Below, piece by piece: positions 2-27,610 of a stretch of 32,389 bases of DNA. The notes below the pieces were generated by a model that was not told the DNA's origin, did no database searches, and saw nothing but the letters and a program-made list of their open reading frames with translations. A program made the position numbers and the translations under genes. Position 1 is the first letter of the stretch; each line of letters opens with the position of its first letter. Origin of the DNA: Deltaproteobacteria bacterium (GTDB taxonomy: Bacteria > Desulfobacterota > Dissulfuribacteria > Dissulfuribacterales > QOAL01). The DNA lies in NCBI GenBank assembly GCA_027025395.1, contig JALVQQ010000206.1:1-32389 (forward strand), given 5' to 3'.

Positions 2-346
2 AGAAGGGGGCTCGGGCTTCCGGGCCCTGAACCTACATATGTTTTGAGGCTCGATGTGGAGCGCAACCAGCTGGTGGTAGGGAGCAAGAAGGAGCTTTTT
101 GCAAACTCTCTTGAAGTGCGTAATGTAAACTGGCTGGTTGATGTTCCCGGGCTTGACCAGGTTCCCGGGATTGAGTGCATGGTAAAGATACGTTACCGCC
201 ATGAGGCGGTGCGTGCCGTGGCAACTCTTTCCGGAAAACGGGTGAGGGTCGAGCTTTCAGAGCCCCAGAGGGCAGTGACACCGGGGCAGTTTGCGGTATT
301 TTACCAGGATGAAATCGTTATGGGTGGCGGTGAGATATGCGGGTAG
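2..346 (+). CDS. mnmA: tRNA-specific 2-thiouridylase MnmA, C-terminal fragment (5' end outside window)
   Basis: Open frame from the window edge to TAG at 344-346. The translation (...VLRLDVERNQLVVGSKKELFANSLEVRNVNWL...KIRYRHEAVRAVATLSGKRVRVELSEPQRAVTPGQFAVFYQDEIVMGGGEI) matches the MnmA C-terminal domain pattern (PGQ.AVFY....V.GGG.I). Confidence 0.85.
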   Translation, partial: RRGLGLPGPEPTYVLRLDVERNQLVVGSKKELFANSLEVRNVNWLVDVPGLDQVPGIECMVKIRYRHEAVRAVATLSGKRVRVELSEPQRAVTPGQFAVFYQDEIVMGGGEICG

Positions 347-1641
347 CTGTCTATACCCTCGGATGCAAGGTAAACCAGTTTGAATCCCAGGCTGTATCCG
401 GCAAGTTTGAAGAGCTCGGCCACGAGGTTGTGCCCTGGCGTGGTGGCGCGGATCTGTTTGTAGTTAATACCTGTGCCGTAACCGCAAGGGCGGCTTCCCA
501 GAGCAGGCAGATGGTCAGGCGTTTCCGGAGGGATTATCCTGATGCCAGGGTGATAGCCACTGGCTGTCATGTGCAGACCGGAGCCGGAGAGCTTATGAAG
601 GCCGCAGGCGGCAGGCTGTGCCTTGTGGGCAATGACCAGAAACGGAGCCTGGTTGAGCTTGCCCTTGCCTCCGCCGGTTGCCTCGAGATGTATGTAGGCG
701 ATATCTTCAGGGTAAAGGAGATAGCGCCTTTCATGATTCGTGCGCCCTTTGATCGAACCCGGGCCTTTGTCAGGATACAGGACGGCTGTGACTCCTTCTG
801 TTCGTACTGCATCGTGCCTTATGCCCGCGGAAGAAGCAGGAGCATGCCTCCGGAAATGGTTCACCGCCAGATAGCGCTTCTTGAGTTGGAAGGTATCAGG
901 GAGGTGGTAATTACCGGCATCCATGTGGGGTTTTATGGCCAGGACCTTGCTGACAAAAGCGACCTTCTGGCGCTGCTGCGTTCTCTCTGTGGTGCTTTCC
1001 CGGCCATGCGTTTCCGCTTGAGTTCCATAGACCCTTCTGAAATCTCCGATGAAATGATTGAATGGGCGGCCTCTTGTCCCAATTTCTGCCCTCACTGGCA
1101 TCTGCCCCTTCAGAGCGGGTCGGAAAAGATTCTGAAGGCAATGAACAGAAAGTACACAGGCGCGGAGTTCAGGGGCGTGGTTGACAGATTGCTCGATGCC
1201 ATGCCTGATGCAGCAATAGGAATGGATGTCATGACCGGTTTCCCCGGGGAGGGGGACGACGAGTTTTTCGCCACTCTTCAGCTCCTCCAGGCGGTACCGC
1301 TGGCCTACCTTCACGTCTTTCCATACTCTCCACGGCCCCATACGGTTGCCGCCGCTCTTGACGGGCATGTGGCCAGGAAAAAAAAGATTGAACGCTCCGC
1401 CCTTTTGAGACGGCTTGGCGCCATCCGCAAACAGGAGTTTTATGAAAGAAACAGGGGCACGGTGCATCAGCTCCTGGTTGAGCGGCGGGATAAAAAGACC
1501 GGACTGTGGCAGGGGATGACAGAAAATTATATCAGCACGCTGGTTGAAGCCCGTGAGCCTGGTGAGGAAATGAAAAACAGCATGATCAGGGTAAGAATAA
1601 AAGAGGTGCGGGACAGACTCGCGGTGGCAGAGCCCGTTTGA
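337..1641 (+). CDS. mtaB: MiaB/MtaB-family tRNA methylthiotransferase (MtaB-like, t6A37)
   Basis: RVAVYTLGCKVNQFESQA start, radical-SAM CxxxCxxC (CDSFCSYCIVPYARGRSRS), TGIHVGFYG, HLPLQSGSEKILKAMNRKYT, and a TRAM-like tail. Overlaps the end of mnmA by 10 bp. Confidence 0.9.
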   Translation: MRVAVYTLGCKVNQFESQAVSGKFEELGHEVVPWRGGADLFVVNTCAVTARAASQSRQMVRRFRRDYPDARVIATGCHVQTGAGELMKAAGGRLCLVGNDQKRSLVELALASAGCLEMYVGDIFRVKEIAPFMIRAPFDRTRAFVRIQDGCDSFCSYCIVPYARGRSRSMPPEMVHRQIALLELEGIREVVITGIHVGFYGQDLADKSDLLALLRSLCGAFPAMRFRLSSIDPSEISDEMIEWAASCPNFCPHWHLPLQSGSEKILKAMNRKYTGAEFRGVVDRLLDAMPDAAIGMDVMTGFPGEGDDEFFATLQLLQAVPLAYLHVFPYSPRPHTVAAALDGHVARKKKIERSALLRRLGAIRKQEFYERNRGTVHQLLVERRDKKTGLWQGMTENYISTLVEAREPGEEMKNSMIRVRIKEVRDRLAVAEPV

Positions 1642-1732
1642 GCAGGTCAGCCTCTCTTTTTGGCCGCATGGCCGTTGGGGCAGCAATGCCAACAGATCAA
1701 ACCAGTCAATCAGAGTAGAGGAATGTAGCGGC

Positions 1733-4700
1733 ATGACAGAAGAAGTTCTTGAAAAATCCAAGGCCCTGAAAGTTAATCTTGAGGAAACAGCAGTCGGAAG
1801 GCTCAAGTTCGAGCCCAGGTTTGATGTATTGAGAGAGGCTGTTGCGGAGTACCGCGGCATAAGCCGGCAGTTGAACCAGCTTCTTTTTGAACTTCATCAT
1901 CCATACCGCAACTGGGACCTGGTAATTGGTGAACTGCGCTCTTTCGCCCTGAAAAATCTTGCCACCTACAGCCGTAATGAAAAGGGCGTTGAGTCAATAG
2001 GGGTGCTGCTTGAAACCATGCTGGAACTGGTGCGTGATGCCCCGCGTCAGCAGCAGAAGGTTGCCGCGGCGGACGCCCTGCTGGCCTATCTTGAAAAGCT
2101 GGTGAACTACTGCGATGACCAGATGCTTGAAAGGGTGCTTCCCAAAATGACAGGCGTCTTCAGAGGGATGTGTGATGTTGACCAGTCCATCATGCGCGCC
2201 CTTGCCAACAGTTTTCATCCACTGGCCAGGGTGGCCCGCAGGCTCGCCGCCAGGGTTGACGATCAGGCCTGTCCCGGGGAGATGTGGAAGCTCCTCTGCC
2301 AGGTGCTGATCAATGTCAGGAAGTCTTCCTATCTCTACTGGCTCTCGATGGAGGGGCCCCTGCAGTGGCTGCACCGTGTTGTGGAGCAGTATTCCATAAT
2401 TGTATCTCCTTCGGAGCTTGGCGCCATAGAAGATGTGCTCCGCCCTGTTTCAAGGCCGGAGATAAAGAAGTGGCTTGTGAAAATCGAGGAACTTGAAAAG
2501 GGAGAGCTTGACAGGCAGACCGTGGAGACTGTTGCCGATCTCCCGGGTCATCTTGACATCGTACGCATGTACAAGGAGATTGCCGGGAAGCTGACGGGTT
2601 TTTCGTGTCCGCTTCCCTCTGAACGCATGGAGCCCGGCACCCGGGAGCAGGAGGTGGGAATACACCTGCTGTTTCTTTTTCATATGGTGGAGATGGAGGG
2701 GCTCAACAAGATTCATGAGGACATCCTGCGTCAGATCAACCGCAACCTGGTATGCCTTATCAAGACCGCCGACGTAGGGCAGCTTAAAGAGGTGCTGCCC
2801 AGGGCATTTGACCTTCTCAAACAACAGGTAGGGAATTTCCCGAGGACAGCGCTTCAGTGCATTGAGACCATCGGAACTGAAATATTCAAGCGCAACAACT
2901 TCAGGCTGGTGGAACTTTTTCTTGAGCAGGTGGTTGATTTCGGTTTCCAGCCGCCCAGGGTCCAGGGGGTTGACAGTGAATGGCACGTACTCAGCAATCC
3001 GGCACATCTGCAGAATATCCGGGTATGGATGAAACTGATCGGGCAGAAGCCCAAGTACTGCGGCACCCTGCTATCTGGCCTTATAGTGAATCTCGGCCTT
3101 GCAGGTACCTGTATCAAGGATACCGATCTGTTCCAGCGGGATGTGACCAGCCTTCTGAACTGCGAAATAGAGCCTGTTTATAACCTGGTCAAGCAGTTTG
3201 CAAGGATCCTGCCGGTCTATTTCAACGAGATAGGCGCCGAGGGCCTTTTGCGTGACGTAACCACCGAGCTTGATGAAATTTCCAGGAGAAAGGACAGGCT
3301 CATCCATTTTCTGCGCAAGCAGAGTCATGTCGAGAGCAATAATCTCATTGTTTACTTTATTGAAGCAATACTCTGTTTCTGGTTCAGCAGGGAGAAGGAC
3401 TGCCTGAAACCCTATCTTGCTCCGCAGATACTGGAGGATATTCCGGTGCATGGCCAATATATTGACCATGTCAACCACCTGCTGCATCACCTTGCGAGAA
3501 GGTTGGAGCTTGAGCCATTTGCCGGCAACCTTGACAGGCTGCTCAGGATTGATGATGAAACCCTGCATTCCATCCTTGAAGAGGTCTCTGACGTGCCTCC
3601 TCATGAGCGCAGGAGGCTCGAGCTGCTGATCCAGATGTACAAGCTCGAGAACCAGAAGTACAAGCTTGGCACCCAGGAGATAGAGGCCCATCTCAGGGAG
3701 GCCAGGAAATACGGTTTTGACACCCTTGACCGGGTTATAGAGATACTTGGAAGCGACGATGCCGAAAGGAATCTGGATGTGATTCTCACCGAGCTTGAGA
3801 ATCTCAAGGAGATAATACTGAGCCCGGAAAAGTTTGAGCCGCAGGAGGAGATATATCTCAAACGCCATATCGCAGCGGACATACCGTCCATGTACGGCCG
3901 CTACCATGAAAAGAAGTTCGATGCGCTGGGACTGACTTTCAGGCTCGAAAATCTGGCAAATATCTACTTTGAGCGCCTGATGCTCGAGATGGAAGTGCCC
4001 TTCATTACCCGCGCCACCTTTGTCCACATACTGAAGGCGCTGAAGCTTTTCTGGAGGGCCATCAGGCTGAATGGAGTAAACTCAAAGAAATTTTCAACCT
4101 ATCTGACTCTTCTCGAGACTTCCCTGGAGGTAAGGCGTTTTTCCTTTACCCAGTATCTCGATATTGTCAAGGGACTTTCCGAGGGCGTCAAGGACATGAT
4201 CTATGTCTATTACCTCAGCCCTCACCAGGATAACATAGCGCGCATCATCAGGCAGCTTGGCCCTGACCAGCTCCTTCCCAAATACAGGGTTTCGCGCCGT
4301 GCGGAAGCGGCATCCGGTGATGATTCCTTTATGATAAGCCGCATTACCGAGAGATTCATGCGGGAGCTCATAGCGTCCACTTTCGGTCTTCAGAATCTGG
4401 ATAATTTCATAGGCAGGGTTTACCAGGTGCTTATGGAGCAGAAGAAGGTGCTCAGCTCCAGGGAAGTTGACATGCTCCTGAGTTATGATCCGGGCCAGGA
4501 TATATGCTCCATCTATATGCCCAGTCTCAAGACCCGCAATCTCATTCAGCTGGGCAACAAGGGCTACAACCTTGTTCTGCTGGCAAGGGATGGAATAAGG
4601 GTGCCTCCCGGCGTGATAATTACAACAGAGGTCTTCCGCTACTACAGCCTGTTTCAGAAACTGCCGGGTGCTTACAGGAATTTCTGTTCCCAGCTCAGGG

Positions 4701-6028
4701 AGGGCATCAAGGAAATTGAGCAGAGAACCGGGGCCAGGTTTGGCGACCCTTCCAATCCTCTGCTTCTGTCCGTAAGGAGCGGGGCGGCCATCTCCATGCC
4801 CGGAATGATGTCAACCATTATTAACGTGGGCAGCAACATTGAAACCACGGAAGGCATGGCTGAAATGACTGGTAACCAGTGGTTCGCCTGGGACAATTAC
4901 AGGAGGTTTGTGCAGTCCTGGTCCATGTCCTTCGGAATTTCAAGAGACGTGTTTACAGAGCTTATGCTGGCCCACAAGAAACGCTGTGGCGTGGAGAAAA
5001 AACGTGATTTTACCGGCGCCCAGATGAAAGATCTTGCCCTGCGCTACAGGAAGGCCGTTCTTGATCTTGGTGTTGATATAGAGGACGATCCCTTTGAACA
5101 GCTCATGATGTCGGTGAGGATGGTGCTCCATTCATGGGATTCGGAAAAGGCCCGAGCCTACCGCAAGATAATGGAAGTTTCAGATTACTGGGGCACTGCT
5201 GTAATAGTCCAGAGCATGAGTTACGGAAATCTGTCAAGCCAGGCCGGGACCGGCGTGGTCTTTACGGCAAATCCGCACAGAAAGCTTGACCGGGTAAGCC
5301 TTTGGGGTGACTATACCCTTGGCAATCAGGGTGAGGATATTGTAAGCGGCCTGGTTTCCACCAACCCAATATCAATCGAGCAGAAGGAGGCGATGGACCT
5401 GCCTGATGCGGTAAGCCTGGAGGAGTCGTCGCCGGAGATTTACGACGAGCTGCTTTCCCAGGCAAAGCGCATGATCTATGACAGGAAGTGGACGCCTCAG
5501 GAGATAGAGTTCACATTTGAGGGGCCGCACCGCGATGAACTGTACATACTCCAGAGCAGGGACATGACAACCAAGAAGAGGGGCTCGGTCAAGGTGTTTG
5601 TGCCTGGCCCTGATCTTGATGCGGCGTATCTTGGCCGCGGCATTGGCGTGGGAGGTGGCGCATTGTCGGGCAGGGCGGTTTTCAGCCTTGACGAGATAAA
5701 GCAGATGAGGGATAAAGAATCAGAAACCAGCCTTATTCTTATAAGGTCTGCCACGGTGCCTGATGATATCGTTGAAATTTCCGCGGCTGACGGACTGCTC
5801 ACCGCAAAGGGCGGCCAGACCTCCCATGCCGCAATAGTTGCCTTCAGGCTTGACAAGGCATGTGTGGTGGGCTGTGAACAGTTGATGGTGTTTGAGCAGA
5901 AGGGCATCGCCACCATACAGGATGTAACCATCCATTCAGGGGACTGGGTAAGCATTGACGGCAGGAACGGATCTGTCTATCTGGGTAAACATCCGGTGAG
6001 GGTGGAGCAGGAAAGCTCTTTGATATAA
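1733..6028 (+). CDS. PPDK/PEP-synthase-related protein: ~930-aa unassigned helical N-terminus + PPDK-type ATP-grasp + phosphohistidine swivel domain, no PEP/pyruvate TIM barrel
   Basis: 1431 aa. PPDK-type nucleotide-binding segment from about residue 936 (LIQLGNKGYNLVLLARDGIRVPPGVIITT; LLSVRSGAAISMPGMMSTIINVG; QSMSYGNLSSQAGTGVVFTANP; GNQGEDIVSGL; EIEFTFEG...LYILQSRDM). C-terminal swivel has catalytic-type GGQTSHAAIVA (His codon at 5825-5827, residue 1365). The protein ends about 65 residues later, without the C-terminal PEP-utilizer barrel. Confidence 0.85.
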   Translation: MTEEVLEKSKALKVNLEETAVGRLKFEPRFDVLREAVAEYRGISRQLNQLLFELHHPYRNWDLVIGELRSFALKNLATYSRNEKGVESIGVLLETMLELVRDAPRQQQKVAAADALLAYLEKLVNYCDDQMLERVLPKMTGVFRGMCDVDQSIMRALANSFHPLARVARRLAARVDDQACPGEMWKLLCQVLINVRKSSYLYWLSMEGPLQWLHRVVEQYSIIVSPSELGAIEDVLRPVSRPEIKKWLVKIEELEKGELDRQTVETVADLPGHLDIVRMYKEIAGKLTGFSCPLPSERMEPGTREQEVGIHLLFLFHMVEMEGLNKIHEDILRQINRNLVCLIKTADVGQLKEVLPRAFDLLKQQVGNFPRTALQCIETIGTEIFKRNNFRLVELFLEQVVDFGFQPPRVQGVDSEWHVLSNPAHLQNIRVWMKLIGQKPKYCGTLLSGLIVNLGLAGTCIKDTDLFQRDVTSLLNCEIEPVYNLVKQFARILPVYFNEIGAEGLLRDVTTELDEISRRKDRLIHFLRKQSHVESNNLIVYFIEAILCFWFSREKDCLKPYLAPQILEDIPVHGQYIDHVNHLLHHLARRLELEPFAGNLDRLLRIDDETLHSILEEVSDVPPHERRRLELLIQMYKLENQKYKLGTQEIEAHLREARKYGFDTLDRVIEILGSDDAERNLDVILTELENLKEIILSPEKFEPQEEIYLKRHIAADIPSMYGRYHEKKFDALGLTFRLENLANIYFERLMLEMEVPFITRATFVHILKALKLFWRAIRLNGVNSKKFSTYLTLLETSLEVRRFSFTQYLDIVKGLSEGVKDMIYVYYLSPHQDNIARIIRQLGPDQLLPKYRVSRRAEAASGDDSFMISRITERFMRELIASTFGLQNLDNFIGRVYQVLMEQKKVLSSREVDMLLSYDPGQDICSIYMPSLKTRNLIQLGNKGYNLVLLARDGIRVPPGVIITTEVFRYYSLFQKLPGAYRNFCSQLREGIKEIEQRTGARFGDPSNPLLLSVRSGAAISMPGMMSTIINVGSNIETTEGMAEMTGNQWFAWDNYRRFVQSWSMSFGISRDVFTELMLAHKKRCGVEKKRDFTGAQMKDLALRYRKAVLDLGVDIEDDPFEQLMMSVRMVLHSWDSEKARAYRKIMEVSDYWGTAVIVQSMSYGNLSSQAGTGVVFTANPHRKLDRVSLWGDYTLGNQGEDIVSGLVSTNPISIEQKEAMDLPDAVSLEESSPEIYDELLSQAKRMIYDRKWTPQEIEFTFEGPHRDELYILQSRDMTTKKRGSVKVFVPGPDLDAAYLGRGIGVGGGALSGRAVFSLDEIKQMRDKESETSLILIRSATVPDDIVEISAADGLLTAKGGQTSHAAIVAFRLDKACVVGCEQLMVFEQKGIATIQDVTIHSGDWVSIDGRNGSVYLGKHPVRVEQESSLI

Positions 6029-6181
6029 AGGAGTAAAATTTCATATCAACAAATTGGCGCAGGTCGGCCTTGAGTTGCATTTCAGGTGCGGCAAGGCAGG
6101 TCAGGTTGCAGGCTGATTTTTACTTTTTTAACCCTGGTGTATTACGCACCGCCATCTTTAATCCAGAGGAGTTTATTGTTT

Positions 6182-7438
6182 ATGGACAATGGAGCATCTC
6201 CCATGAAGCTTGGAATCAACGGACTTGGAAGGATAGGCAAACTCAGCTTATGGCATCATGTGGGCAGAAAGTTTTTTTCTGAAATCGTGGTTAATGTGGG
6301 TCGCGAAATCGGGCAGGGGCTTGAGGACATAGCGGCAGCCATTGACCGGGACAGCACATACGGTCGTCTTGGAGCCTATTTGTACGGGCATAAATGTCCA
6401 AGGGTCATTGAAAATCTCAATGACAGGGACGGCACAATGACCATTGACGGCGTGCCTGTAAGGATTCTCAGGGAGAGCAGGGACCCGCGAGGAATAGACT
6501 GGTCAGGCAATGATGTCAGGATCGTTGTGGACACTACCGGAGTGTTTCGTGATCCTACGGCGCCTGCCGATGCCGCCAGGGGAAGCCTCAGGGGACATCT
6601 TGAGGCAGGAGCGGACAAGGTTATACTTTCCGCCCCTTTCAAGATCGCCGACAAGGCGGCGGAGATGCCTGATGACGCTGTAACTACCGTTATGGGCATA
6701 AATGAAGACGACTACATACCGGACAGGCATGTCCTTGTTTCATCCGCAAGCTGCACCACCACGTGCCTTGCCTACATGGTCAAGCCCGTACTGGACTATT
6801 TTGGAGCCAACCGTATTCTGTCTGCTTCAATGGTAACGGTTCATGCCGCAACAGGAAGCCAGGTAGTGCTTGACCGGCTCCCAAAGGCAGGTGCCAGGGA
6901 CCTTCGCAAGAACCGGAGCATATTCAATAACATAATCCTTACTACCACGGGAGCCGCAAAGGCCCTGGGGCTGGTTATTCCCGAGATGAAGGGAATAGGA
7001 TTTCTTGCAGAGTCCGTAAGGGTTCCCACAAATACCGGTTCTCTCATCATACTTAACCTGACCATTCAGGATGAGAGCATGGAGAATCCGATAAACCGCG
7101 CGCTTGTGAACGACATATACAGAAAGGCCGCTGAAGGCCCCATGTCCGAACATCTCATCTACAGCGAGGAGCAGAACGTATCCGGGGACATTATCGGCAT
7201 GCCGGAGGCCGCTGCGATTATTGAGGGCACGGAGACTCACACCAGGACATCAGCCATACGCGTTGATCCCACGCTGGCGTGCAAGGCGCTGGGAGAGTCC
7301 CCCGACAGCATCACCTGTTCAGAGATTAATGTCCCGGTTACTAACGTCGTGGTATATGGCTGGTATGACAACGAACTCGGAAGCTATACGGTGATGCTGG
7401 GTGACAGGCTTGTCTCCATTGCAAAGTCCATGTTTTAG
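6182..7438 (+). CDS. glyceraldehyde-3-phosphate dehydrogenase-like protein (divergent)
   Basis: GINGLGRIGK Rossmann start, VVDTTGVF, ADKVILSAPFK, SSASCTTTCLA, VTVHAATGSQVVLD, GAAKALGLVIPEMKG, VRVPTNTGSL, WYDNELGSY. Preferred ATG at 6182 with upstream GAGGAG; the ORF track's 6086 start is less likely. Confidence 0.85.
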   Translation: MDNGASPMKLGINGLGRIGKLSLWHHVGRKFFSEIVVNVGREIGQGLEDIAAAIDRDSTYGRLGAYLYGHKCPRVIENLNDRDGTMTIDGVPVRILRESRDPRGIDWSGNDVRIVVDTTGVFRDPTAPADAARGSLRGHLEAGADKVILSAPFKIADKAAEMPDDAVTTVMGINEDDYIPDRHVLVSSASCTTTCLAYMVKPVLDYFGANRILSASMVTVHAATGSQVVLDRLPKAGARDLRKNRSIFNNIILTTTGAAKALGLVIPEMKGIGFLAESVRVPTNTGSLIILNLTIQDESMENPINRALVNDIYRKAAEGPMSEHLIYSEEQNVSGDIIGMPEAAAIIEGTETHTRTSAIRVDPTLACKALGESPDSITCSEINVPVTNVVVYGWYDNELGSYTVMLGDRLVSIAKSMF

Positions 7439-7530
7439 TAATGTTGTATCAACGGAGTTGGCGCCTTCTGTTGCGCATGGAACCGGCTCTGTCTTAACAG
7501 TTGAAGAATTGTGCAGTTCGGAGAGCGCAG

Positions 7531-8724
7531 ATGATAAGATTCATTGATGAACTCGACCTGAAAGCGCGCAGGGTAATCATGCGCGTTGACTTCAATGTTC
7601 CTCTTGATGCTGAGTGCCGTATTACAGACGATAACCGTATCCAGGCCGCCATGCCCACCATAAGGCATGCGCTTGAAAATGGTTCAAGGCTGCTTATCTG
7701 TTCACACCTTGGAAGGCCCAAGGGCAAGAGGGTTGAAAAGTACAGCCTTGCTCCCGTTGCCGCAAGGCTCGGTGAAATTCTTGGCTTTGAGGTGCCGCTC
7801 GCCCCTGACTGCATAGGTCCGGAAACCGCAGGGATGGCAGCCCGGGTACAGGAGGGCAGGGCGCTGATGCTTGAAAATCTCCGTTACCATGCAGGGGAAA
7901 CCGCCAATGATCCGGAATTCGCTTCAGCGCTTGCCGGTCTTGCGGATGTGTATGTTAATGACGCTTTTGCTGTTTCACATAGGGCGCATGCGTCAGTTGT
8001 AGGCGTGCCTGCCGTGATGAAGGAGTGCGGCGGCGGATTCCTCATGAAATCCGAAATCACCTATTTCAACAGGGCCATGAGGGAACCGGCCAGGCCCATG
8101 ATTGCAATCCTTGGCGGGGCCAAGGTTTCAAGCAAGCTTGGGGCAATCGAGAATATCCTTCCAAGGGTAGATGTTTTGATTATCGGCGGGGCAATGGCCA
8201 ATACATTTCTTGTTGCCCGCGGAATTTCAGTTGGAAGGTCGCTTGTTGAATCCGAACTTGTTGACGTGGCGGCCAGGCTTATGGATGATGCTGCTGAAAG
8301 GGGGGTGAAGCTCCTTCTCCCGTCTGACGCGGTGGTGGCCGCTGAAATGACAGAGGGTGCCGCCACAGAGACAGTCGATATTCACTCTGTACCTGAAGAC
8401 AGGATGATTCTTGATATTGGGCCTGCTACCGTAAAGGCGTACAGTGAAGCCCTTGAAGGCGCCGGCACCATAGTCTGGAACGGTCCAATGGGCGCTTTTG
8501 AGATCAAACCCTTCAGCAGCGGCACCATGGAGCTTGCCCATGCGGTTGGCCGGAGTTCGGCCCTCAGCATTATCGGCGGTGGAGATACTGATCTTGCAAT
8601 CCACATGGCAGGGGAAAAGGACAATGTTTCCTACATGTCCACCGGAGGCGGTGCATTTCTGAGTCTCCTTGAAGGCAAGACTCTTCCCGGTTTTGAAGCC
8701 CTTGAGAAGTGCGGCGGGCGGTAA
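7531..8724 (+). CDS. pgk: phosphoglycerate kinase
   Basis: RVIMRVDFNVPLD, SRLLICSHLGRPKG, VYVNDAFAVSHRAHAS, AILGGAKVSSKL, IIGGAMANTFL, VWNGPMGAFE, IIGGGDTD, STGGGAFLSLLEGK. ATG at 7531 is preferred over the TTG at 7501. Confidence 0.96.
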   Translation: MIRFIDELDLKARRVIMRVDFNVPLDAECRITDDNRIQAAMPTIRHALENGSRLLICSHLGRPKGKRVEKYSLAPVAARLGEILGFEVPLAPDCIGPETAGMAARVQEGRALMLENLRYHAGETANDPEFASALAGLADVYVNDAFAVSHRAHASVVGVPAVMKECGGGFLMKSEITYFNRAMREPARPMIAILGGAKVSSKLGAIENILPRVDVLIIGGAMANTFLVARGISVGRSLVESELVDVAARLMDDAAERGVKLLLPSDAVVAAEMTEGAATETVDIHSVPEDRMILDIGPATVKAYSEALEGAGTIVWNGPMGAFEIKPFSSGTMELAHAVGRSSALSIIGGGDTDLAIHMAGEKDNVSYMSTGGGAFLSLLEGKTLPGFEALEKCGGR

Positions 8725-8831: not shown

Positions 8832-9605
8832 ATGAGAATTCCCTTGATGGCTGCTAACTGGAAGATGCACAAGACCATTCCGGCGATAATATCTTTCCTG
8901 GACAGTTTCATTCCGCTGATGAGGGAGCTCGGCTCTGATCGTGAGGTGGTTATTGCCCCTCCGTTTATCGGCCTTGAGACGGTGTGCAGGGCATTGCGCG
9001 GCAGAAAAGGCATGGGGGTAGCGGCCCAGAATATGCATTTTGAGGAGCAGGGTGCGTTTACAGGCGAAATTTCGCCCCTGATGCTGTCGGATCTGGGGGT
9101 CGGTCATGTAATTCTGGGCCATTCGGAACGGCGCCACGTCTTTGGAGAAACCGATGGGTTTATAGCCAAAAAAGTAGTGTCCGCGCTGGAGCACGATTTG
9201 AAGCCGATCCTGTGCATTGGCGAAAAACTTGAGCAGCGCGAGGCAGGTGAAACCAATGCAGTGCTGGAAGCGCAGTTGAGAAAGGGGCTTTCAGGCGTTA
9301 CCGCTGAACAGGCGCAGGATGTAGTCATAGCGTATGAGCCGGTATGGGCAATCGGAACCGGTAAAACCGCCACTCCCGAACAGGCCCAGGAGGCGCATAT
9401 CTTTGCAAGAAAATGGATGGCAGAACATTTCAATTCAGGTATTGCGGACCAAATCCGAATATTGTATGGTGGCTCCGTCAAACCGGCCAATGCGGCGGAG
9501 CTTATGGCCCTGCCCGATGTTGACGGCGCGCTCGTGGGTGGAGCGGCGCTTGATGCGGAAAGCTTTGCTGAAATAGCCCTTTGCCCGTTGACGCCCCGTG
9601 CATGA
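8832..9605 (+). CDS. tpiA: triosephosphate isomerase
   Basis: MAANWKMHKT, GVAAQNMHFEEQGAFTGEISPLML, VILGHSERR, VIAYEPVWAIGTGKTATPEQAQE, ILYGGSVKPANA. AGGAGG upstream of the start. Confidence 0.97.
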   Translation: MRIPLMAANWKMHKTIPAIISFLDSFIPLMRELGSDREVVIAPPFIGLETVCRALRGRKGMGVAAQNMHFEEQGAFTGEISPLMLSDLGVGHVILGHSERRHVFGETDGFIAKKVVSALEHDLKPILCIGEKLEQREAGETNAVLEAQLRKGLSGVTAEQAQDVVIAYEPVWAIGTGKTATPEQAQEAHIFARKWMAEHFNSGIADQIRILYGGSVKPANAAELMALPDVDGALVGGAALDAESFAEIALCPLTPRA

Positions 9606-9642: not shown

Positions 9643-10074
9643 ATGTACACACTGGTTGTTACCATACATATAATAGTTTGCATTATTCTGGTGCTGACTG
9701 TTTTGCTGCAGCAGGGTAAGGGAGCAGAGGTTGGTGCGGTTTTCGGGTCCAGCGAGGCCATGTTTGGCAGTGCCGGTCCGGCGTCGGCACTTAACAAGCT
9801 TACCACCGTGGTTGCAATTATCTTTATGATAACCTCGCTGGGGCTGACCTATCTTGCGGCTCATCGCACCGGCAGTTCCGTCATGGAGAGTGTGAAGGTC
9901 CAGGCGCCCGCAACGCTGCCTGCGGAAGAGGCACCGGCGGAAGTGCCTCCCTTGCAGCATCCAGGGGCTGAAAAGGCGGAACCTGCTGCAAAAGATGTTC
10001 AGCAGCCAGCTGCCGGCAGCAGCGGGGCCGAAAAAGCAGAACCACAGCAAACATCAGTTCCTGCAAAAAAATAA
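9643..10074 (+). CDS. secG: preprotein translocase subunit SecG with Ala/Pro/Glu-rich C-terminal tail
   Basis: VLTVLLQQGKGAEVGAVFGSSEAMFGSAGPASALNKLTTVVAIIFMITSLGLTYLA is typical SecG. The low-complexity tail contains GAEKAEP twice. Confidence 0.92.
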   Translation: MYTLVVTIHIIVCIILVLTVLLQQGKGAEVGAVFGSSEAMFGSAGPASALNKLTTVVAIIFMITSLGLTYLAAHRTGSSVMESVKVQAPATLPAEEAPAEVPPLQHPGAEKAEPAAKDVQQPAAGSSGAEKAEPQQTSVPAKK

Positions 10075-10167: not shown

Positions 10168-10180
10168 GTCGGAAATAATG

Positions 10181-10211
10181 CCCGTAATCTTCGTAGGTTA
10201 CGGGCTTTTTT
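10181..10211 (+). terminator. Rho-independent terminator after tRNA-Leu
   Basis: CCCGTAA-TCTTCGTAGG-TTACGGG followed by CTTTTTT. Confidence 0.85.
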
Positions 10212-12892: not shown

Positions 12893-13279
12893 ATGGCAAA
12901 GGTAGCAGTCGGTGGTTCAAGAAGTTTTGATTCCTACGAGCTTGTCAGGGACGTTCTTGACATGCTTCTTGTAAGCGATGACATATTGTATTCGGGAAAT
13001 GCTCCTGGCGCTGACAGGCTCGGGGAGCGTTATGCAGAAGAAAACGAGATGGAATGGAAAATCATTCCCTCTGAATGGGAAAAGCATGGCCTGAAGGCAA
13101 CCATGATGAGAAATGAAGTGCTGTTAAGGGCCTCGGATTGCGCCATAATATTCTGGGATCGAAAGTCTGAAGGTTCAAAACATATGATAGATATAGCCCT
13201 GAGGGCAAAAAAACTACTGGCCGTGGTTTATCCCGATGGCAACCTGAAACTCCATCTGAATCCCAGAAAATTGGCATGA
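12893..13279 (+). CDS. DUF2493/YspA-like SLOG-superfamily protein
   Basis: MAKVAVGGSRSFDSYELVRDVLD...ILYSGNAPGADRLGERYAEEN...HGLKATMMRNEVLLRASDCAIIFWDRKSEGSKHMIDIA: GGSR..., SG.A.GAD..., RN..., W...S.G... pattern of DUF2493. Confidence 0.8.
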   Translation: MAKVAVGGSRSFDSYELVRDVLDMLLVSDDILYSGNAPGADRLGERYAEENEMEWKIIPSEWEKHGLKATMMRNEVLLRASDCAIIFWDRKSEGSKHMIDIALRAKKLLAVVYPDGNLKLHLNPRKLA

Positions 13280-22513: not shown

Positions 22514-24841
22514 TTAATACGGCTGCATTACCCATACACCGCTGGGACAGATGTCGGCGCAGAAGCCGCACGCAATGCACTTGTCATCGTCAGAAGTGTA
22601 GGCAAAGCTGCCTGTTTCTTCAAGTTTGATCCGGCTTATGGCCCCTGTGGGACATATTGTTTCACACAGGTGACAGTCACGGCACGCGCCACAGCTCATG
22701 CAGCGTCTGGCCTGGTCCTCGTCATTGTCACACCTGCAGTTGTCAGGGATAAAGAGCCTGTGAGTCAGCTGCTTGCGGTCTATTGCCTCTTTTTCAAAAG
22801 GATGAAATTTTTCGCCCTTTATGCTGCACATAATGGCATGCGCGGCTGTTTTGCCGCGCCCCAGTGCGTTGGTCGCAAGGCCCGGTTTTTCCACATCGCC
22901 GATGGCAAGCACCTTGGGATCAGATGTCCACCCGGCCTCGTCTGTCTTTATCCATGCGCCGTCTCCAACCCTTTCTACCTCAACTGTCTCAGGCAGGAAG
23001 TCCAGGGCGGGGACATCACCAATGGCCATAATCACGGTCTGGGCAGGATAGAGCTTGTCTGCCGCGTCAACAAGGCCTTCATCCGTGACTTTCCTTGGCT
23101 GAACCGGCCAGACGAACCTTGCTCCAAGCGCTTCGGCGGCCTCTTTCTTTTTGCCCACAGCCGCGGGCTTCCTGGTATCAACAAGAGTAACCTCATTGGC
23201 TCCGAGCCTGAACGCCTCGCAAGCAACGTGACAGGCCATGTTGCCGGCCCCGATAATGACAACCTGCTTGCCAATTTCGGGGGGATTGTCGCTCTTGGCC
23301 GCTTTCAGAAAGTCAAGGGTCCGGATTACCCGTTCATGGCCGGGGAAGGAGATCTTTTTGGGTTCGTGTGCTCCCACTGCAACCACAACGTAATCATGCT
23401 CATCCTGAAGTTCACTGAATTTCTGCCTGGTTATCAGGGTGTTGAAATGGACATGGATGTTTCCTGTATGAAGGAACCGGTCAATTTCAGCCTCCCATAC
23501 GGCAAGCGGCAGCCTTTCCCTCGGAATGATCTGTGCGAGCTTCCCGCCAAGCTTGTCATCCTTTTCAAAAATATGGGCCTCAACACCTTCCCTGGCAAGC
23601 TGCCAGGCCGCATTCATGCCAGCCGGGCCTCCCCCTATGACGGCTACCTTCCTGCCTATCGGTTCAGGAACCTTTGGCGGCGGGACATCCTTGCTGTGCT
23701 GTCCCAGAAGCGATATGTCAATGTTGTCGTCCGTAACGTCGCTGGAGCAGTTCTGCATGCAGAGGTTGGGGCAGATCTGCCCGCATACCGAGGCTGGAAG
23801 CGGGGTGTACTCCAGGATCATTTCATAGGCTTCCCTGGTTTTGCCGTCCCTGAGCAGTCTAAGCCGTTCCACAGTGGGGATATGGACCGGGCAGTGGTAT
23901 TCACAGGACGCCGCATTTTCCTTGTTGGCCCAGAATGGACGCCGCCTGCGCAGTTCGCCGGTTTCAATGAGGCCGATGGGAGAACGGTCCAGCCCGGGAG
24001 CCAGGTCGCGGAGCGGATCACCGCCAAACTCCTTGTCCCAGACCCGCCTCCGGAATTCATCCATGGGCATGTCTCCGGAGAATAGCAGCGCCACCTCCCT
24101 CGGGGGAATTGCGACAAGCATCTTCCACTGACTGCGGTCCGAAAGTTCTTCAAGCAGATCCATGCGGTTGATATTTTCCAGGTATGCAGGAAGCCTTTCA
24201 ACAAGCCACTGCCACTGTTCATCGTCCGGGAGTACTGCCCTGACATTGGTGCGGGAGTAGGTCTGGTCGGTCTTTCCGCGATAGTAGATCCAACCGCCCA
24301 CCATTCCCACACAGGGTCTGTAACCCAGTACACTGTTTGGTGTCTTGGGCTCCACGCCGCATATTACAGCAATGCCTCCGCAGTTGAATTCGGCAAAGGC
24401 GTCGCCAACAGACCCCAGCACCCAGAGCTCGGGACGTTCATAATCGGGGTTCCATTTTGTCATGGTAAGGCCCCTGGCGCCAATGGAGCCGCCTATCATG
24501 ACCTTGCCCTGGGCCATTGCATTACATACGCCGTTTGTTGCGTCTCCCAGTACCGTAATCTCAGCGCCGATATTGAGATAGCCAACATCATCGGATGCGG
24601 AACCGTGGCATATAATCCTGGTGCCAGGCGTTCCCATGCATCCCAGGCGCTGTCCGCATGGGCCTTTTACATGCACTTCATGGTCGCCGCCCTGCAGGCG
24701 GCCTCCCACGTTGTGCTGTCCATACGTTTCAAGTATCAGTTTGTCGGATTTTGCAGCCGCCTCCTGCACCAGAGCCTCAAAATCCTTTGAGCTGATGCGC
24801 CGGCCCTGGCTGTCAATACCCTTTACGATTACTTCATTCAC
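22514..24841 (-). CDS. glutamate synthase component: GXGXG (GltB C-terminal) domain fused to GltD-like FAD/NAD(P) oxidoreductase plus C-terminal ferredoxin domain
   Basis: N-term GGDHEVHVKGPCGQRLGCMG...GDATNGVCNAMAQGKVMIGGSIGARG (GXGXG-type repeats); middle CPVHIPT, VCGQICPNLCMQNCSS, KVAVIGGGPAGMNAAWQLA; C-term CRDCHLCETICPTGAI and CIACGFCADICPSGV. Confidence 0.9.
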   Translation of the reverse strand: MNEVIVKGIDSQGRRISSKDFEALVQEAAAKSDKLILETYGQHNVGGRLQGGDHEVHVKGPCGQRLGCMGTPGTRIICHGSASDDVGYLNIGAEITVLGDATNGVCNAMAQGKVMIGGSIGARGLTMTKWNPDYERPELWVLGSVGDAFAEFNCGGIAVICGVEPKTPNSVLGYRPCVGMVGGWIYYRGKTDQTYSRTNVRAVLPDDEQWQWLVERLPAYLENINRMDLLEELSDRSQWKMLVAIPPREVALLFSGDMPMDEFRRRVWDKEFGGDPLRDLAPGLDRSPIGLIETGELRRRRPFWANKENAASCEYHCPVHIPTVERLRLLRDGKTREAYEMILEYTPLPASVCGQICPNLCMQNCSSDVTDDNIDISLLGQHSKDVPPPKVPEPIGRKVAVIGGGPAGMNAAWQLAREGVEAHIFEKDDKLGGKLAQIIPRERLPLAVWEAEIDRFLHTGNIHVHFNTLITRQKFSELQDEHDYVVVAVGAHEPKKISFPGHERVIRTLDFLKAAKSDNPPEIGKQVVIIGAGNMACHVACEAFRLGANEVTLVDTRKPAAVGKKKEAAEALGARFVWPVQPRKVTDEGLVDAADKLYPAQTVIMAIGDVPALDFLPETVEVERVGDGAWIKTDEAGWTSDPKVLAIGDVEKPGLATNALGRGKTAAHAIMCSIKGEKFHPFEKEAIDRKQLTHRLFIPDNCRCDNDEDQARRCMSCGACRDCHLCETICPTGAISRIKLEETGSFAYTSDDDKCIACGFCADICPSGVWVMQPY

Positions 24842-24869
24842 TTTATTTGTCTCCGGTCTCTTTCAGGTA

Positions 24870-26510
24870 TTAACAGATATATTTTATCTGAAGCCTGTCC
24901 GCCACGTCCTTGTCTTCAATGCCTATTGCGTCCGACATGCCTATTGGCAGGCTCTGGGAGCGGCCAAGCGGCGCCATGATCTTTTTCATTTCGGTTTTAA
25001 TGGCCTTGAAGGTGTCAACCACGCGCTCAGCCACCTTGTCGGGGTCAAGACGGCGGTACAGCTTGGGGTTCTGGCTGGTTATTCCCTTGGGGCAGATACC
25101 AATGTTGCAGACATTGCATCTGTTGTTTTCATCGCCCAGGCACCCCGCGGCTGCCTGCATGATATACTTGCCCAGATGCACGCCGCTTGCGCCAAGCATG
25201 ATCAGCGCCATGCCGTTCTGTGTGACGTTGCCGTTTTTGCCTACACCGCCCGCAGCGAATATGGGAATTTCATTCTGTTTGCCCTGCGCGCAGAGGTCCA
25301 GGTAACATTCACGCAGGTTCGATGCAATGGGATGACCCATGGCGTCCATGCTTACATTGTAGGCAGCGCCGGTTCCGCCGTCCACTCCATCTATCAGGAG
25401 ACCGGCTGCGTAGGGATTTCTCACTATATTGTTCAGGACCGCCTTGGCGGATGTGGAACCCGAGATTTTCGGATAAACCGGCACCCTGAAATCCCATGCC
25501 ATCGAGAGTGACTGAATCATCTTCATGATAGACTCTTCGATGGAGTAGAGGGTGTGATGAACCGGAGGAGAGGGAAGATCAACTCCTTCAGGCACACCCC
25601 TGAGCCGAGCAATAAGCTCGCTGACCTTGAACCACATCAGGAGGCCACCGTCTCCTGGCTTGGCACCCTGGCCGTATTTGATCTCAATGGCGGCAGGGTC
25701 GCATTTCATGTCGGGGATGGCCCTTATGATCTCGTCCCATCCAAAGTAGCCCGATGCAATCTGGAGAATGATGTACTTCAGAAACTTGCTCTTGAGTATC
25801 CAGGGGGGGCATCCGCCTTCTCCCGATGCCATGACTACCGGAATCCCGAGCACCTCGTTGCAGTAGGCCACGCCCTGGAGAAGGCCAAGCCACATGTTTG
25901 GTGAAAGTGCGCCAAAGGACATGGAGCCTATCACAAAGGGGAAGATTTCCCTGACCGGCGGTATCCACTCTCCGGAAAGCTTGCGTTTTATGTATTCATC
26001 GGGTGGCAGCACCCTTCCCAGCAGGGTATTAAGTTCAAATTCATGCCTGCCTGCATCCAGCGCCGGGTCGGTAAGCATGGAGATACGGTCAAAAAGAATC
26101 CTGTCCAGCAGGTTCGGGCCCGGGACATTTCGTCTGCCCCCGCGTTTCACCGCATTTCCGCCCTTTGTGCTCTGGTAGCGCAGCCTGTCTATTATCGGGT
26201 TGAAGACCGGCCCAATGGCCTGATTCGGGCAGACATAGGCGCACATGCCGCATCCGATACAGCGGTGATCCACGTCGGTTTTCTGCCGGATGCCGACAAA
26301 TATCTTGAAGGTATTGCTACGCTCGGATGCGTTGAGCACCATCTTTGGCATGCGCTTCCTCATGTACTGCAGTTTTATGGCCCCGGTGGGACATACTGCA
26401 GTGCACCTGCCACATAGCATGCACCTGGATTCGTTGTGTTCAACGATCCAGGGCATGTCCTTGATGCTCAGGCTGCCTGGGGTAGAGGGAATGGATCGAA
26501 TTGAGACCAT
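24870..26510 (-). CDS. glutamate synthase FMN/synthase domain with two N-terminal 4Fe-4S motifs
   Basis: CMLCGRCTAVCPTGAI and CIGCGMCAYVCP; IKYGQGAKPGDGGLL, DGVDGGTGAAYNVSMDAMGHP, AAGGVGKNGNV, CNVCNIGICPKGITSQNP. The start may be 26510 or the internal ATG at 26456. Confidence 0.9.
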   Translation of the reverse strand: MVSIRSIPSTPGSLSIKDMPWIVEHNESRCMLCGRCTAVCPTGAIKLQYMRKRMPKMVLNASERSNTFKIFVGIRQKTDVDHRCIGCGMCAYVCPNQAIGPVFNPIIDRLRYQSTKGGNAVKRGGRRNVPGPNLLDRILFDRISMLTDPALDAGRHEFELNTLLGRVLPPDEYIKRKLSGEWIPPVREIFPFVIGSMSFGALSPNMWLGLLQGVAYCNEVLGIPVVMASGEGGCPPWILKSKFLKYIILQIASGYFGWDEIIRAIPDMKCDPAAIEIKYGQGAKPGDGGLLMWFKVSELIARLRGVPEGVDLPSPPVHHTLYSIEESIMKMIQSLSMAWDFRVPVYPKISGSTSAKAVLNNIVRNPYAAGLLIDGVDGGTGAAYNVSMDAMGHPIASNLRECYLDLCAQGKQNEIPIFAAGGVGKNGNVTQNGMALIMLGASGVHLGKYIMQAAAGCLGDENNRCNVCNIGICPKGITSQNPKLYRRLDPDKVAERVVDTFKAIKTEMKKIMAPLGRSQSLPIGMSDAIGIEDKDVADRLQIKYIC

Positions 26511-27610
26511 ATCTTAAACTCCTGTCGTTCTGGTGGAACAACCACTGTATGTTCACGCATTGGTTGGAAATCAAGGGAACGATCCCTGTCCGGAATCATG
26601 GCGTCAACGCCGCACATTTCGGAAGCCATTGCCCACTCGCCCGGTTTGCCGCCAATGGTGGCCGGCCTCAGCTTCTTGGCGTCCATTACCAGTATGCAGG
26701 TTTCATCAGGCAGGCTTCCCATCACGCAGTTGGGACCGTCAATTATAAGCCTGCGGCAGGCGTTACGGAGCCCAAGAAGGAAATCTCCCTGGGGATGATT
26801 TTGAAGCTCCTCGGTTTTAAGCGGCGTAATTACATGCTTGTAGGCCTCAAGGGGCAGTTTGAGCTGCCTCGTCACATAGTGGAGAATGTGGGTAAATACC
26901 TCACTGTCAGACTGATAACCCATGTAAGCGGGGTAATGCCTGCCGGTCAGCCAGTCCCTTATGGGGACAAAGGCGGTATTTTCCCCGTTTGTCATGGTGC
27001 CGATTCCCTGAATAAAAAACGGGTGGCACGCATAGAGGTTGATGCCGTAGTTGGTGTTCTGTCTCCCCTGGGCCATGCATATGCGGGATTTGATGCGGCC
27101 CGAGTCAAGGCCAAGCGCATTGCCGACCTTCAGGGGCCAGCCTACTTCCTTTATCATTATTACATCAGGCCAGAAAGAGAATACCGTAAGGTCTCCGCCG
27201 TGCTCCTCACCGTCCCTGCGTATCGCCAGCCTGGTGGCTGTGAGTTTGTCCTCTATTTCCTCCTCGGAGTGTACGGCCCATGAATCAGGAAGTTTGTAAA
27301 CCTGTACAAAGTATTTGAATCTGTCCCTGGCTTCGATTTTCGAAAAATCAGCGTCAAATTCATGGTCATACTTGAGTACAAATCCCCGCGCCTCCATGAA
27401 TTTGTTCAGACGCTTCATGGCGTCACGCGTGTGGGCAATGCCAGACAGAATGGGGTGAGTTGCTTCATAGTTGAAGTCGGTGAATTCAACCCCCCTGAGT
27501 AAAAGTCCCAGTCCGCTTCCATCATAGCCCTCCTGCATGGCCTCCATGGCCCGCAGTATCTCGTAAGGTGAAAACGGATTGTTCGCGGTTTTCAGTGCTA
27601 ACCGGCACAT
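26468..27610 (-). CDS. glutamate synthase glutamine amidotransferase (class II) subunit
   Basis: MCRLALKTANNPFSPYEIL (Cys2 nucleophile), GYDGSGLGLLLRG, IAHTRDA, NGENTAFVPIRDWL, SDSEVFTHIL. GGAG 8-11 nt upstream. Confidence 0.85.
   Translation of the reverse strand: MCRLALKTANNPFSPYEILRAMEAMQEGYDGSGLGLLLRGVEFTDFNYEATHPILSGIAHTRDAMKRLNKFMEARGFVLKYDHEFDADFSKIEARDRFKYFVQVYKLPDSWAVHSEEEIEDKLTATRLAIRRDGEEHGGDLTVFSFWPDVIMIKEVGWPLKVGNALGLDSGRIKSRICMAQGRQNTNYGINLYACHPFFIQGIGTMTNGENTAFVPIRDWLTGRHYPAYMGYQSDSEVFTHILHYVTRQLKLPLEAYKHVITPLKTEELQNHPQGDFLLGLRNACRRLIIDGPNCVMGSLPDETCILVMDAKKLRPATIGGKPGEWAMASEMCGVDAMIPDRDRSLDFQPMREHTVVVPPERQEFKIWSQFDPFPLPQAA

Follow-up and report, generated by a model that had tools for sequence, protein, structure and literature searches.

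A PPDK-like phosphotransferase with a predicted helical solenoid and no pyruvate barrel is the genomic partner of a divergent GAPDH

The ATP-grasp and phosphohistidine swivel domains of PPDK also occur in proteins that lack its phosphoenolpyruvate (PEP)/pyruvate barrel. VadK (Rv1127c) of Mycobacterium tuberculosis is a barrel-less PPDK that autophosphorylates on a histidine and binds enzymes of the methylcitrate cycle (PMC13400623), and rifampin phosphotransferase and HpeHI are small-molecule dikinases carrying another acceptor domain in place of the barrel (PMC4844700, PMC12167813). Here we describe a PPDK-like phosphotransferase, which we name PPDKL, encoded in a 32,389-nucleotide stretch of a draft genome of a Deltaproteobacteria bacterium of the phylum Desulfobacterota (GCA_027025395.1, contig JALVQQ010000206.1; hereafter, the window). 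PPDKL occupies 1733..6028 (+), a frame of 1431 amino acids with an ATG start whose full length is kept in relatives, and is followed at 6086..7438 (+) by a divergent GAPDH subtype, here named GapX. Comparative genomics shows the two to be functional partners.

The PPDKL frame was open and conserved in all but two of the 41 relatives searched (one highly fragmented, one 55% complete), and is thus not a chance frame. Pfam recognised only two domains: PPDK_N at residues 940-1220 (E 5e-30) and, at 1334-1413 (E 4e-18), the PEP-utilizers mobile domain. With an alignment to PPDK and Foldseek, these matches delimit a PPDK-type ATP-grasp domain (residues 936-1295; 4538..5617, +) and a phosphohistidine swivel domain (residues 1296-1431; 5618..6025, +; Foldseek 2fm4, target TM 0.81), in agreement with an earlier reading of the DNA alone (the sequence-only reading), which had put the ATP-grasp segment from about residue 936 and a GGQTSHA motif in the swivel. 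The catalytic half as a whole matched PPDK structures (Foldseek E 1.6e-29; 30-34% identity over ~530 columns). GGQTSHA (5810..5830, +) contains His1365 (5825-5827), the predicted phosphorylated residue, and its TSHA is invariant in 21 divergent sequences. When aligned with Clostridium symbiosum PPDK, K943 corresponded to K22, R1276 to R337, T1363 to T453 and H1365 to H455; K22A, R337A and T453A mutants appear in the PDB titles of the matched PPDK structures. All four positions were unchanged in the 21 divergent relatives, and the ATP-site residues and His1365 stayed invariant across ~35-100% identity; poor conservation of this histidine had been named beforehand as grounds for doubt. The best NCBIfam model was PPDK itself (TIGR01828; 381 bits, below the cut-off of 843). 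NF004531, presumably the family of VadK, gave 309 bits (below its cut-off of 456), and the rifampin phosphotransferase model NF041857 gave 44 bits (cut-off 999). Given its intact, invariant catalytic residues, PPDKL is best read as an active PPDK-family dikinase.

The frame ends 66 residues after His1365, and Pfam found no PEP-utilizers_C (PF02896) barrel anywhere in PPDKL, which bears out the proposal, also supported by the NCBIfam models and the PPDK alignment, of a PPDK-derived phosphotransferase whose barrel is missing from the open reading frame (ORF). An adjacent gene supplying the barrel, which would have spoken against that proposal, was not found in the draft genome: the only two proteins with PF02896, an enzyme-I-like ORF of 619-622 aa and a bona fide PEP synthase scoring 1215 bits (cut-off 598), are encoded on other contigs. 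With no neighbouring or free PF02896 domain in the draft genome, we rejected a barrel supplied in trans. Since a complete PEP synthase is encoded elsewhere in the genome, PEP formation is already provided for. These findings bear on the automatic annotation of such genes: the D. hydrothermale genome paper lists a GAPDH (LGS26_08525), a 'PEP synthase' (LGS26_08520), a second GAPDH (LGS26_08515) and a PGK (LGS26_08510) (PMC8780430). From the order of these tags and from genome G023, we infer that this locus is the PPDKL arrangement under another name. That PPDKL is an ordinary PEP synthase or PPDK, as the annotation between two GAPDH genes would have it, with its barrel borrowed from a separate protein, is exceedingly improbable given the absence of such a domain nearby or free in the genome and the complete PEP synthase elsewhere; the missing barrel likewise makes the label unlikely to hold in the pathway reconstruction of D. 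hydrothermale (PMC8780430). In G023 (a single contig), the GapX-pgk pair was found twice, with equal scores (C1:505497-507924 and 1777503-1779930), with just one copy lying beside PPDKL. A literature search for a PPDK-like gene combined with a GAPDH in the phylum returned no paper, the D. hydrothermale genome paper alone listing the genes. While the chemistry of the domains is known, the architecture of PPDKL and its partnership with GapX are new.

GapX was identified as a GAPDH by Pfam, NCBIfam and alignment. The sequence-only reading had taken the adjoining gene for a GAPDH, which holds for the family; the gene is, however, not an ordinary member, as it scored 323 bits against the type I model TIGR01534, below the cut-off of 367, and its motifs are divergent. 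It retains both catalytic residues, Cys and His, as well as TTTGAA at the phosphate site, yet has SCTTT for SCTTN, HAATGSQ for HAYTNDQ, an NDL cofactor motif without its Asp, and several insertions common to its relatives. The Gly-Arg that replaces the Asp hints at use of NADP(H).

We next consider how the two genes are distributed, in searches bounded by the phylum and a sample of 297 genomes across it, scoring PPDKL by its N-terminal part and calling GapX at E < 1e-90 (ordinary GAPDHs score E > 1e-43). PPDKL was present in essentially all relatives of the window's order and in 84 of the 297 genomes, nearly always in a frame of ~1400 residues or more; GapX was present in 85. Both occurred together in 83 genomes, PPDKL alone in 1, GapX alone in 2 and neither in 211 (Fisher's test 2e-70, with the reservation that relatives are not independent), and the three single-gene exceptions, G150, G045 and G116, are 76, 79 and 62% complete. 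In the six families with mixed presence (f12, f20, f21, f43, f58 and f63), the two genes varied together except in the incomplete G150. Their co-occurrence goes beyond adjacency, as the genes were present yet apart in 18 of the 83 genomes. Hence the link to carbon metabolism, previously suggested by the position of the gene beside gap, pgk and tpiA, emerges as one to lower glycolysis/gluconeogenesis and as much stronger than the sequence by itself could reveal. Three genomes are 100% complete and have GapX as their sole GAPDH: G068 and G104, both closed into a single contig, and G260. PPDKL was there too, so that switching between two GAPDHs cannot be its whole role. A single break in the N-terminal half interrupts the PPDKL frame of G104 (L160:6933-11100), perhaps through a sequencing error or decay of the gene; the frameshift falls inside the N-terminal part, and we discarded it as a natural two-gene PPDKL and did not use it as evidence. 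In the 91%-complete draft G000, the only GAPDH found was GapX, whereas most relatives add an ordinary GAPDH directly upstream of PPDKL. The best 80 loci were nearly all labelled as this phylum or only as Deltaproteobacteria, Proteobacteria or bacteria, and the named relatives include Desulfobulbus, Candidatus Electrothrix, Desulfocapsa, Thermosulfurimonas dismutans and Desulfocicer vacuolatum. Plasmid-borne homologues of PPDKL were searched for and none was found.

A second line of evidence came from five genomes of family f2 with a second PPDKL that shares ~42% identity with the window protein and has GapX as the next gene (the two overlap by 4 bp in L155); at the three loci inspected, the native f2 PPDKL is followed by pgk instead. 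In the PPDKL and GapX trees alike, the second pair clustered with one set of Desulfobacterales-like sequences (L063, L061, L064 and L066). The node with L063 had support of 0.99 (PPDKL) and 0.95 (GapX), and the wider clade 1.0 and 0.995, respectively. In both trees the native copies stayed with the order, the GapX clade being weakly supported (0.53). As the second pair has the same neighbours in both trees, the simplest account seems to be that PPDKL and GapX moved together as a module by horizontal transfer. Taken together, co-occurrence, co-transfer and adjacency establish PPDKL and GapX as a functional pair.

In order to understand what the N-terminal ~930 residues contribute, we compared them with known domains and modelled their fold. 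In the window protein they had no Pfam match, 19 relatives gave only scattered matches at E >= 0.02, a profile search of the PDB returned no sequence match below E 0.05, and NCBIfam returned no sequence match. The AlphaFold2 model of residues 1-930 was all-helical (mean predicted local distance difference test (pLDDT) score 83, predicted template modelling (pTM) score 0.72), as the sequence-only reading had anticipated, and Foldseek retrieved only HEAT-type solenoids (importin beta, exportin), none with E below 0.001 and at TM ~0.18. A known domain in this region, which that reading had held would undermine it, was therefore rejected, the Pfam, PDB and Foldseek hits being chance matches or generic solenoids. 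On this model, the N-terminus is predicted to be a HEAT-like solenoid to which no particular known fold corresponds.

Conservation along this solenoid, in the alignment of 21 sequences, was strikingly uneven. Residues 1-399 (1733..2929, +) are fast-evolving, with 1.8% invariant columns and a model of helices only. They precede a conserved helical core, residues 400-545 (2930..3367, +; DTDLFQRD, NEIGAEGLLRD, RKD..HFLRKQSHVES), with 24% invariant columns and 12 invariant K/R/H/D/E residues. A loop at residues 700-745 (3830..3967, +; IYxKRHIAxDIPSMYGxYxExKFDALGL) reached 39%, the maximum of the protein, exceeding the ATP-grasp (20%) and swivel (18%) domains. The core and loop together hold ~20 strictly invariant charged residues, among the invariant charged positions of the protein being K710 R711 H712, R528 K529, R507 and R737. 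The loop had low pLDDT in the 1-930 model and still had in a model of residues 300-1431 that includes the catalytic half, from which, the loop being low-confidence, no contact with that half can be claimed. Such invariance in a segment that has no predicted structure is a hint, short of proof, that the loop touches a partner or ligand outside the model.

We tentatively favor the hypothesis that PPDKL is a competent dikinase which has swapped its barrel for a solenoid and serves GapX as a dedicated partner, a phosphotransferase that probably regulates or activates it, this regulatory or activating character being the uncertain part. ATP bound in the ATP-grasp domain would phosphorylate His1365, as its invariant PPDK residues and the analogy with VadK suggest; GapX would dock on the solenoid, in keeping with the co-occurrence, co-transfer and gene overlap; and the swivel would bring the phosphate to a site that the core, the 700-745 loop and GapX make up jointly. 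GapX may then be activated or controlled via the phosphotransfer or the phosphorylated state, coupling the gluconeogenic GAPDH step to the supply of ATP. All 30 genomes examined for PGK had it, in many cases within the gene run of PPDKL, which ruled out PPDKL as a replacement for PGK and favors control over replacement; control is also favored by the VadK precedent and the solenoid. Several observations weigh against this hypothesis: the ~20 invariant charged residues resemble a ligand or acceptor site and are unexplained by regulation of a protein, VadK has no extra domain comparable to the N-terminus of PPDKL, and in Desulfobulbales PPDKL adjoins an ordinary gapC (and glgA/aroC), not GapX.

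The same dense invariant charge, together with the tendency of the broader family to act on small molecules, favors a metabolite acceptor, and the principal alternative, possible though on the unlikely side, is accordingly a metabolic dikinase. Phospho-His1365 would here act on a small anion held in the conserved core, the first candidate being 3-phosphoglycerate, converted to 1,3-bisphosphoglycerate for GapX, and the conversion of ATP to AMP would drive an uphill gluconeogenic step much as PPDK and PEP synthase do, one step lower. The charged residues named above fit a multiply charged ligand, and the well-studied relatives with an extra domain all phosphorylate small molecules or glucans. 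PPDKL is obligately paired with a GapX that keeps Cys/His and TTTGAA and lacks the NDL Asp (a hint of NADPH), the gene order holds the pairs gapC with pgk and GapX with PPDKL, and the arrangement occurs in D. hydrothermale, an obligate autotroph unable to ferment glucose (PMC8780430). Against these points, PGK already covers the step in the 30 genomes checked, and the solenoid resembles protein-binding repeats. While transfer from phosphohistidine to a carboxylate has a precedent in succinyl-CoA synthetase, we know of no PPDK relative that makes an acyl phosphate. In an unlikely, more specific form, PPDKL and GapX would be a two-enzyme complex performing a new committed gluconeogenic step, in which 3-phosphoglycerate is phosphorylated from phosphohistidine (ATP to AMP) and the acyl phosphate is channelled to a dedicated reductive GAPDH, parallel to the reversible PGK/GapC route.

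The neighborhood of PPDKL bears on two further explanations. In the window, PPDKL and GapX are followed by pgk (phosphoglycerate kinase; 7501..8724, +), tpiA (triosephosphate isomerase; 8832..9605, +) and secG (9643..10074, +), all identified by Pfam, with intergenic gaps of 37-107 bases, and the run is closed by a terminator-like hairpin (10180..10205, +; 11 pairs and TTTTTT), a consensus match of a kind no commoner than in shuffled sequence. The synteny survey that the sequence-only reading had proposed found gapC-PPDKL-GapX-pgk-tpiA-secG, or subsets of it, as the usual and conserved order. Desulfobulbales instead have aroK-aroC-glgA-gapC-PPDKL, with GapX beside pgk elsewhere, and such loci, running from aroC through glycogen/starch synthase and an ordinary GAPDH to PPDKL, suggest a tie to glycogen metabolism. 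The synthase gene occurred at ~31 loci (including L134 and L141), mostly two genes upstream of PPDKL. It is nonetheless quite improbable that PPDKL is a glucan or sugar dikinase of glycogen metabolism, even though glucan water dikinase (GWD) shares its chemistry: Pfam detected no carbohydrate-binding domain in the window protein or 19 relatives, and the glgA linkage is confined to one lineage group, whereas the GapX association is general. We also take the domain order of PPDKL to be the reverse of that in GWD.

At ~16 loci of order relatives and Thermodesulfobacteria-type genomes (e.g., L081:2331-6721), the run lies downstream of rpoN-hpf-ptsN-rapZ-EIIA(man)-rimI, a position at which the window carries mtaB. 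We count this phosphotransfer control cluster (rpoN to EIIA) as support for a regulatory role of PPDKL toward GapX. Lying directly upstream of gapC-PPDKL, it might also mark PPDKL as an ATP-driven enzyme I feeding a phosphorelay of the phosphotransferase-system type (PtsN, mannose-type EIIA), and the genome does encode an enzyme-I-like protein that depends on PEP and belongs to the superfamily of PPDKL. We consider this highly improbable: a separate enzyme I is present, the linkage is absent from the window and from Desulfobulbales and Desulfobacterales-like loci, and many bacteria that lack PPDKL have the cluster.

Elsewhere in the window, three ORFs at 22514-27610 (-) resemble a split glutamate synthase (one has GXGXG, flavin oxidoreductase and ferredoxin domains, one combines Glu_synthase with ferredoxin, and the third, of 380 aa, had no Pfam match). 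At 12893-13279 (+), a short ORF containing a YAcAr domain (SLOG family) stands alone, flanked by the secG region and a chemotaxis receptor, and a 519-aa open frame antisense to mtaB, at 301-1860 (-), is probably a spurious mirror ORF.

PPDKL is kept across a broad range of sulfate reducers, sulfur disproportionators and cable bacteria. Its pairing with GapX suggests that the making of sugars from small carbon compounds may be driven or controlled in a manner not yet described. A dikinase with GapX as its obligate partner would, if true, constitute a new ATP-dependent control of a central GAPDH step or, alternatively, a new energy-coupled gluconeogenic step in energy-starved autotrophs.

Compared with described systems, PPDKL shares with PPDK (TIGR01828; PDB 1kbl, 5jvl) the ATP-grasp and swivel domains and the equivalents of K22, R337, T453 and H455, whereas in place of the PEP/pyruvate barrel it has the ~930-residue N-terminal solenoid. 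Rifampin phosphotransferase and HpeHI have the same ATP-grasp/His-swivel chemistry with the barrel replaced, yet their acceptor domain is unrelated, and in rifampin phosphotransferase it lies between the ATP-grasp domain and the His, while in PPDKL those two domains are adjacent, the solenoid is N-terminal and the sequence is far more PPDK-like. Glucan water dikinase has starch-binding domains, and PPDKL has no carbohydrate-binding module in Pfam. GapX, for its part, shares with type I GAPDH (TIGR01534) the catalytic Cys and His and the Rossmann and catalytic domains, and differs in SCTTT, HAATGSQ, its inserts and the lost NDL Asp. VadK is likewise PPDK-derived, has lost the barrel and is tied to control of a central carbon pathway, a role that PPDKL would share; it differs in consisting of the ATP-grasp and His domains only (~50 kDa, against 1431 aa), in serving the methylcitrate cycle and in being actinobacterial. 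PPDKL thus represents a second barrel-less PPDK lineage besides VadK, with a clear genomic partner.

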